Origin: Candidatus Altimarinota bacterium
GTDB taxonomy: Bacteria > Patescibacteriota > Gracilibacteria > BD1-5 > UBA2023
Direction: 5' to 3'
Length of the DNA stretch: 64,000 nt
NCBI GenBank assembly: GCA_028685185.1
Contig: JAQUEK010000001.1
Location: 66,338 to 130,337, forward strand
The notes under the pieces are model-generated. The model did no database searches, was not told where the DNA came from, and saw nothing but the letters and a program-made list of their open reading frames with translations. Both the position numbers and the translations under genes were made by a program. Below are positions 21,441-24,254 of this stretch, piece after piece. How positions within the stretch are numbered: position 1 is the stretch's first letter; each line of letters opens with the position of its first letter.

Positions 21441-21479
21441 AACCCCAGGATTGAATTTTAAAATATTTCTTGGGTTTTT
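21441..21479 (+). terminator. Leader hairpin with T-run before the 21550 gene
   Basis: AACCC-AG pairs with CT-GGGTT around a 20-nt AT-rich loop, followed by TTTTTC. It reads as a plus-strand terminator though no plus-strand gene lies just upstream, so it may attenuate transcription into the 21550 gene. Confidence 0.5.
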
Positions 21480-21549
21480 CAATATTTTTCTTTTCATGGT
21501 TTCTTATATTGAGCTCGCAAAAACAAAAAAATAAAGGAGGATTACAGAC

Positions 21550-21774
21550 ATGTCTTACACAAACGGATACGACAATGGCTACAAGAAAGGCTACGATGAC
21601 GGATTCATAAGACAAACGAAAAGCATCACTGGAGGATTGGGGATCGCAGATGTGGCAAGAACCTGCGTATCGCCTGAAGTATATCTCGAAACCTTCCTTG
21701 AAGGCTATCAGAAAGGATATAACGACGGTCTCTTCCAGTACAAGCAGAAGGAATCCCTCAAAGGGATAATCTGA
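21550..21774 (+). CDS. Small GX3-repeat protein ending in TGA (standard-code-like gene)
   Basis: 74 residues under the standard code, MSYTNGYDNGYKKGYDDGF at the start and EGYQKGYNDGL near the end: GX3 repeats like the deca-GX3 motif of Yae1-type small proteins. AGGAGG lies 9 nt before the ATG. All 11 glycines are GGN, none TGA, and the GC content is higher than around it. The stop is TGA (21772-21774). Read as glycine, the frame would run through the hairpin and antisense across the next gene until about 22854, which is implausible. It looks like a gene brought in from a standard-code genome, phage or plasmid. Function unknown. Confidence 0.7.
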   Translation: MSYTNGYDNGYKKGYDDGFIRQTKSITGGLGIADVARTCVSPEVYLETFLEGYQKGYNDGLFQYKQKESLKGII

Positions 21775-21788
21775 AAAAGGAGGAAAAA

Positions 21789-21815
21789 AATAATCCCGCC
21801 AACGGCGGGATTATT
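21789..21815 (-). terminator. Terminator of the VirB6/TrbL-like gene
   Basis: AATAATCCCGCC, loop AAC, complement. On the minus strand it is followed by seven Ts, so it ends the gene stopping at 21834. On the plus strand the T-tract is weak (TTATTT) but may also stop the 21550 transcript. Confidence 0.85.
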
Positions 21816-21833
21816 TGATTGTTACAGAATCGG

Positions 21834-24254
21834 TTATACTATCTTGGCAGCGATAGAATCAACAACTGTCTTATCTAATTCTATTCATTCTTCAGTCAGT
21901 TTTGCTTCGATCATTTCTCTTTTCTTATCATCTGGCACCATTCTATTGTTTTCATCCTTGAATGAGCTCAATTCGAATTTAACGGTTTGTTTCGCAGGTT
22001 TATTATTCTTATCTGTTCATTCGATTACGACAGTAACATTCTGCGTATCTTTCACTAATCCATTGGCTGCAGCGATCTTTGGTTTATTTATCTTTATCTC
22101 ATTATCTGCATCAACCTTTCATTCATTATTATTTTTAAATAATTTATTCAGTCATGTTGCTGTTTTTAGATCATGGATACCTTTCTCTCATAGATATCAA
22201 TCTAAAGCTATATCTAACTCATGGAATCATTTCACTATACTATCTAAAGTTCAGATCTTTATATCCTCAAGGATCTTTTTCTTCGCATCAGGATTAATAG
22301 TCAGCTTCTCTATATGTTGCATTAGCATTTCCTGTTTCTGCTTGTCTTTAGCTAAATCAGGCAGATCCTTTATATCCATCATCTTTATTCAATTACTTAT
22401 CCATGCGGCTTGCTCAGATTTTACATTTGTGGGTTGTTTATCTAGATTTTCCCTAGATTTATTATACCAATCTTGGGTATGATATCACATTGTTGAAGCC
22501 AGACTTTCACCGAATTTCGTTCAAAGCTTACTACCCTCAACAGATGCCGCATTAGAAATGGCACGCTCGATATTTCATCAGAATGATTTCAATCATTCCA
22601 TACTCATTCATTTTCATGTTCAAGGTACTTTCAGCGGAATATATTTCGGAGCATCCATGGCAAGCTTACCGATAGAATTACCGAATTCAGCGATAGGTGC
22701 AATTGCTTTTCAAGTGATTTCATTCGCTTTCAGCGCAGCCATTACAGCCATCCATAGTATCACAAGAGCTAGAAATGATATTATTATATTTGATATCATT
22801 CATTTTGTTACATCCATTACATCTCAGAAGACTCAGTTTGTTCATGAATCATAATTTCACATTATAGTAAGGTCGAATTTTCAGTTTCATTGTCAGAATG
22901 AGATTGTCTGATCTCAGTTCTCATCCGTATTTCATGAATTCGTCAAAGATATGAATTCGCTTCACTCATAGTTTGCACTCATTGCAAGAGATAGGAATGT
23001 AAGTCAAAAGGCTAAAGCAGCAGATACATATACTGGAACCATCGCAAGAGATATGAATTTTGTTATTGAAATATGTTTATTTATATCCTCCATCATCTTT
23101 CATCCTTTTCAGTGGAAGAAATATACTAACGCGAATACCGGCGAGAACATAGCAAAAAGCCAGAGCATTGTCATACGGGAGAAAAGGGCAAAGGCGATTG
23201 CAATTATAAGTATTCAGAAAACCAATGCGAATATAACTCAGAATGTCAATTTCTTGAATATATCTCACACTTTCTTGACGGAAGTCAAAGTCTGCTTATC
23301 TGAAAGCTCTTTAAGCTTGTCTATTTTGAAAATTCAGTATGCATATATGGTCAGAACATTATATGCTCCGTTTCAGTTTCACATAAGATCAGAAAATTTT
23401 ATACATTTATCAGGTTCTTTCGCACAATCTACATTGTGATAATCTCATCATTCACCTGTAGCTGCAGCATGTGTCTCTGCCTGAGCGGCTGCAGTATCTT
23501 CTGCTGTCATTCATTCCTCTCCTAATCATGTTTCCCAATCACTATCATCAGTAAGATCTATGTTTATGCTTTTAGGAATTATAGCTTTATCTAATATTGC
23601 GCTTCAAGCAGGATTCTTGGCGATTGTATCATATGATAATGAGAGAACCGAAGCAGTAAGTATATTGCTCACGCTCAATACAGCACTGACTATGAACCAA
23701 GTGAAAGGGACTATAAGTATTCAGACTACAAGCCTTGGCAATGATTGCTTCATGGCGAATTGTCATTTGCTGTCTCAGAATATATTCATGAATGCTATCA
23801 CGACAAGCATAAAGGCAAATATCACATATACGAAATTCGCCACCATTATCCAAATGGTATGCAATGCAGGCCTAAGTCATATGATATCTCAGAATGTCCA
23901 ATCAGGTGAAAGTAGCCATCAGATGAACATAACTAAAGGCTGTGATATTAGTGCGACTATTGATATCACTCAGTTAAGTATATCTATTGCTCAGTTTATT
24001 GTAGTTGATGCTGCTGCAGAGGTTGTTTCATCTGCCCATGCGAAATCCCTGAAGATGAACAGATAAAAAAATATAACAGAATAGAAGGTATACATTCTCC
24101 TGTTCAATATATGTTTTTTGGAAAAAATATAATATGTCCTTAATGTTTTCTCAAATTCATGAATCGTTTCTTTGATAGGGCTTGTAACGGTTTTTCTAAG
24201 GTTTTTCCTTAGATCTCTCCTATTTTCAAGAATATATTTTTGTATTTGTAGCAT
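21834..24254 (-). CDS. Polytopic membrane protein, VirB6/TrbL-like
   Basis: 806 residues. A basic N-terminus is followed by a hydrophobic segment near residue 60 (FYSVIFFYLFIFRDFAWADE) that looks like a late signal or anchor. Then come INGAIDILNGVISIVALISQ, LVMFIGWLLSPDWTFGDIIG and further helices to about residue 480 (ILIIAIAFALFSRMTMLWLF, ISNIIISFLALVILWMAVMA). A long soluble C-terminal part follows, rich in Lys/Asp (about residues 500-806). Hydrophobicity and order resemble VirB6/TrbL channel subunits of type IV secretion seen in candidate-phyla genomes, but no other T4SS gene is adjacent. Function inferred only from fold pattern. Confidence 0.65.

Follow-up and report, generated by a model that had tools for sequence, protein, structure and literature searches.

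A standard-code gene ending in TGA within a UGA-glycine genome: a candidate natural case of a borrowed gene spoiled by a changed code

Introduction

Bacteria of the BD1-5/Gracilibacteria group are reported to read UGA as glycine and to lack prfB (PMC6851277). The literature is divided on whether such a code change is a barrier to borrowed genes. For Vampirococcus lugosii (Absconditabacteria/Gracilibacteria), which gained 126 genes by transfer, the authors proposed that UGA as glycine guards against foreign genes, as read-through of their UGA stops would spoil expression (PMC8080830). In code-11-compatible phages with Gracilibacteria as predicted hosts, TGA is closely followed by other stops (PMC10746230), and a study on recoded E. 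coli reports a related effect for unassigned UAG (PMC6207430). With respect to initiation, SR1 is among the organisms that rarely use Shine-Dalgarno (SD) sites and lack CCUCC (PMC10783764).

Here we describe a 74-codon gene in a window of 64,000 nt, i.e. the whole stretch of DNA analysed, and the class of genes to which it belongs. Like V. lugosii, the bacterium uses UGA for glycine and carries many transferred genes; in contrast to the earlier description, individual unameliorated standard-code genes are identified here by their codon and SD signature, and three of them have no back-up stop at all ahead of the terminator. No listing of individual standard-code imports by such a signature was found in the literature searched. 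Like genes of the code-11-compatible phages, the 74-codon gene contains no in-frame TGA and is usable in both codes, but it has no alternative stop ahead of the terminator and no phage relative of it was found. The SD-scarce organisms without a conserved CCUCC share with this genome an altered anti-SD and SD-less native genes, while the genome described here has in addition an SD-led minority, namely the standard-code genes. The failure mode considered below has already been proposed, and the genes presented are candidate natural cases of it.

Results and Discussion

Composition of the 74-codon gene

The gene lies next to a convergent gene of the native type:

21535-21540, plus strand: Shine-Dalgarno site AGGAGG, 9 nt upstream of the ATG
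21550-21774, plus strand: small gene of 74 codons, ATG at 21550, 11 GGN glycine codons, GC 0.45, GC3 0.54
21772-21774, plus strand: its TGA, a stop in the donor code and glycine in this cell
21834-24254, minus strand: convergent native gene of 806 aa with 51 TGA codons

In the original prediction this gene was described as having an ideal AGGAGG, 11 GGN glycines, a raised GC content and a TGA stop, all of which the codon and GC counts confirm. The glycine codons are GGA (5), GGC (3), GGG (2) and GGT (1), with no internal TGA. Genome-wide, TGA accounts for 76.8% of the glycine codons in called genes of at least 200 aa, the gene calls being longest-first open frames made with no trained gene finder. 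A run of 11 GGN codons without TGA thus has a probability of about 0.232^11 = 1e-7 and is not due to chance. The GC content of 0.449 compares with 0.320 for the genome, and the GC3 is above that of every native gene (n=914). A codon model trained on the other imports, with the 74-codon gene left out, scored this gene as foreign rather than native by 23 nats and as coding rather than a non-coding frame by 16 nats.

The predicted protein shares GYxxGYxxG repeats with the Yae1/LTO1 GX3-repeat proteins (Pfam PF09811). With 23.6 bits against PF09811 (Yae1_N) it stays below the curated Pfam cut-off of 27.5 and is not assigned to the family; unlike in Yae1/LTO1 members, the best matching stretch spans residues 2-19 only. 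NCBIfam gave no match for the 74-aa protein, and a structure model shows three helices at low confidence (pLDDT 66).

A class of standard-code genes in the genome

The 74-codon gene is one of about 20 genes that look standard-code, the final list of 20 containing 270 GGN and no TGA glycine codons. They are scattered over six of the eight contigs, alone or a few together, with native genes around them. Candidates were chosen from glycine-codon lists, partly by their protein-like look, so that the set is not blind, and their count depends on the threshold and misses small imports. Two checks depend less on our choice. Zero TGA occurs in 7 of the 856 called genes with at least eight glycines, all seven of which belong to the import set, and the long GGN-rich frames recovered by a scan for AGGAG or GGAGG ahead of an ATG include the same genes.

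Native genes, defined by at least three TGA codons and at least 100 aa (n=917), have no AGGAG or GGAGG ahead of an in-frame ATG within the first 40 codons in any case (0/917). By script, an SD site was present in 14 of the 15 glycine-defined imports; the remaining one carries a GGAGG that precedes an internal ATG by 11 nt, slightly outside the range that the script allowed. Two features, the glycine codons and the SD sites, hence split imports from native genes almost perfectly, and the standard-code genes can be recognised one by one. These counts also bear on the view that the gene is native and owes its GGN glycines to high expression or selection, in keeping with a reduced TGA use in the EF-Tu-like gene and some others. 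The EF-Tu-like gene, however, still uses TGA for 17 of its 41 glycines, no native gene has a comparable SD site or reaches the GC3 observed here, and no homologue was found in the relatives searched. The native-type promoter motif described below speaks for a native origin, which is nevertheless very improbable.

The genome (8 contigs, 1.17 Mb) has an estimated contamination of 1.37%, and foreign reads merged into a contig might in principle have produced such a gene. The spread of about 20 standard-code genes among native ones on six contigs, and the native-type elements within about 60 nt on either side of the 74-codon gene, make an assembly artefact the least probable of the explanations considered.

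The import set includes ordinary families (PyrE-like, ThiF and SLT-domain proteins), and by reading of their sequences other members look like CheW, MCP and hemerythrin. Their GC contents range from 0.33 to 0.53, which suggests more than a single donor. An SD-like site within 40 nt past the stop was found in 7 of the 20 imports (4 orphan, 3 operonic) and in 4 of the 917 native genes, which suggests that some imports were cut out of donor operons.

Initiation signals and the anti-Shine-Dalgarno sequence

The 3' tail of the 16S rRNA reads TCTCC or TCTCT instead of the canonical CCTCC in all nine relatives inspected, and the start of contig C1 (L002:1-120) gives a TCTCC tail for the genome itself. 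With the anti-SD altered in this way, SD sites are foreign to native genes here. The GGN-only glycines, the SD site and the altered anti-SD together point to the 74-codon gene as a recent import. Very probably, it came from a standard-code organism into this UGA-glycine genome, where its UGA is read through and the stalled ribosomes are rescued. On this account, a recent horizontal transfer would have brought the gene into a Gracilibacteria/BD1-5-type genome, where it would have kept the donor's glycine codons, SD site and TGA stop. Of the two alternatives in the original prediction, the standard-code import is strongly supported by the GGN-only glycines, the SD site and the GC3.

A wider, rather doubtful reading is that two styles of translation coexist, with native code-25 genes that do without SD sites on one side and, on the other, SD-led standard-code imports served by the residual anti-SD AUCUCCUUU, some of these imports being silenced by non-stop read-through of UGA.

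Promoter region

Upstream of the gene the following elements are found:

21459-21498, plus strand: native-type promoter-upstream motif TTTCTTnnnTTTTTCAATATTTTTCTTTT, ending 52 nt before the ATG
21505-21510, plus strand: candidate -10 box TATATT, proposed from inspection of the sequence

The genome has about a dozen strong copies of the promoter-upstream motif, which mostly lie 33-51 nt ahead of native genes and in the same orientation. Similar stretches are present in two relatives (G011 and G032), and copies also lie beside imports at C6:102-109 kb. The occurrence of the TTTTTCAATATTTTTC motif near several imports had raised the idea of a cassette or integration site, which was dropped, as the majority of copies precede native genes and share one orientation relative to them; for the same reason the motif is taken as a promoter element. 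With a native-type motif upstream, the 74-codon gene is probably transcribed. The native look of the motif also means that the unit may not be wholly newcomer DNA.

The native genes behind the T-rich motif include those for RecQ-like helicase, Mg-chelatase/ComM-like and DprA-like proteins. Both DprA and ComM have known roles in DNA uptake and recombination, so that the motif may mark a competence-type regulon.

Decoding of the TGA

A single class-I release factor locus was found in the genome (C3:215.8-216.9 kb), which passes the prfA cut-off and fails that for prfB, thus scoring as RF1; no separate RF2 (prfB) was found. A tRNA-Gly(UCA) is encoded at C6:31908-31986 (ARAGORN, code 25); Rfam at its gathering score did not report this tRNA on the same stretch. 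With UGA decoded as glycine and RF2 not found, ribosomes should read through the TGA at 21772-21774.

It had also been proposed that the cell can stop at some UGA codons. Termination at UGA 21772, by a context-dependent stop or residual release activity, would yield the 74-aa protein and would fit the perfect SD site, the open frame and the terminator right past the TGA, all of which have been kept. This proposal finds no support in the decoding machinery: the one release factor locus does not qualify as RF2, a tRNA-Gly(UCA) is present and TGA is the main glycine codon, so that termination here is very improbable.

As predicted, the frame is open antisense for more than 1 kb if TGA is glycine: the 434 codons of the code-25 frame end at 22854 and run antisense to the convergent gene at 21834-24254 (806 aa). 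The region just past the TGA contains the following elements:

21778-21783, plus strand: orphan AGGAGG, perhaps left over as the ribosome site of a further donor gene that has been lost downstream
21784-21790, plus strand: run of seven A (A7); with six A, TAA 21791-21793 is in frame and the tail is GKRRKK
21788-21816, between the convergent genes: 13-bp terminator-like hairpin, starting 13 nt past the TGA

The predicted fold of 21775-21835 has a minimum free energy of -19.5 kcal/mol. No in-frame TAA or TAG precedes the hairpin; the next one lies 359 codons on, past the hairpin. Since the hairpin comes before any such stop, a 434-residue antisense product is unlikely. On the plus strand the U-tract (TTATTTGATTG) is weaker than that on the minus strand, and termination in this direction may therefore be leaky.

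Under the favoured explanation, recent import followed by read-through, the mRNA would end at the hairpin, ahead of an in-frame TAA or TAG. With UGA as glycine, a ribosome would then arrive at the mRNA end without a stop. In this situation rescue by tmRNA is expected, and a tmRNA is encoded at C1:68882-69318. The non-stop complex would be resolved in this way, leaving little stable protein in place of the 434-aa product.

An ordinary C-terminus would result if the A7 run were in reality A6, through a homopolymer assembly error, or if slippage produced A6 in part of the transcripts. UGA would be read as glycine, KRRKK added and translation ended normally at TAA 21791-21793 with a six-residue basic tail. 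Removal of one A is all that is needed to bring this TAA into frame, and GKRRKK is plausible as a C-terminus. On the other hand, the presence of the A7 run is explained by its second role, as U-tract of the terminator on the opposite strand, and two further imports (C3:47114 and C6:106654) likewise have no back-up stop ahead of the terminator, though a similar run might rescue those as well. We regard this explanation as unlikely.

Among the six TGA-ended imports, three have a TAA 3-9 nt later, ahead of the terminator, and three (the 21550-21774 gene and the two just named) have none; six cases are too few to judge whether TGA-ended imports are depleted. Usable stops have been retained in most imports and are missing in a few, so that nature offers a gene-by-gene test of the barrier. 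The 74-codon gene is one of three such natural cases in which to ask if borrowed genes are spoiled by a changed code.

Searches for a donor, and related observations

The original prediction had named phage, plasmid or host DNA as the possible source and called for a search for close relatives, which was run and returned none in any collection searched. No homologue was found in the 147 genomes of the group (146 besides its own, the same-family ones listed belonging to other genera), nor in genome_contigs, IMG/VR (viral_contigs) and plasmids, and the phage search gave weak partial matches only (39% coverage, E 0.1-0.2). This result is consistent with a recent arrival; the same outcome would be expected if the donor has not been sampled. 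For the PyrE-like import the best matches were only 41-42%, the ThiF-like and Cys-rich imports had no viral relative, and the 238-aa import had no relative in plasmids. As neither a donor nor a homologue was found, we infer the transfer from composition and signals.

In a second code-25 genome of the family (G009; GC 0.40), TGA makes up only 21% of the glycine codons, and TGA use thus varies widely across the family. Some of its native genes are SD-led, and with both properties imports could not be separated in the same way there.

Two further loci were observed in the genome studied here. A 1137-aa gene at C7:131189-134602 has TGA for 9 of its 86 glycines and, unlike the imports, a low GC3. 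At C6:102735-108752, a small cluster of standard-code genes is interleaved with native genes. It encodes a ThiF-like E1, a second protein with an E2-like look by reading of its sequence only, and products of 82, 349 and 55 aa, and resembles a bacterial ubiquitin-like conjugation set.
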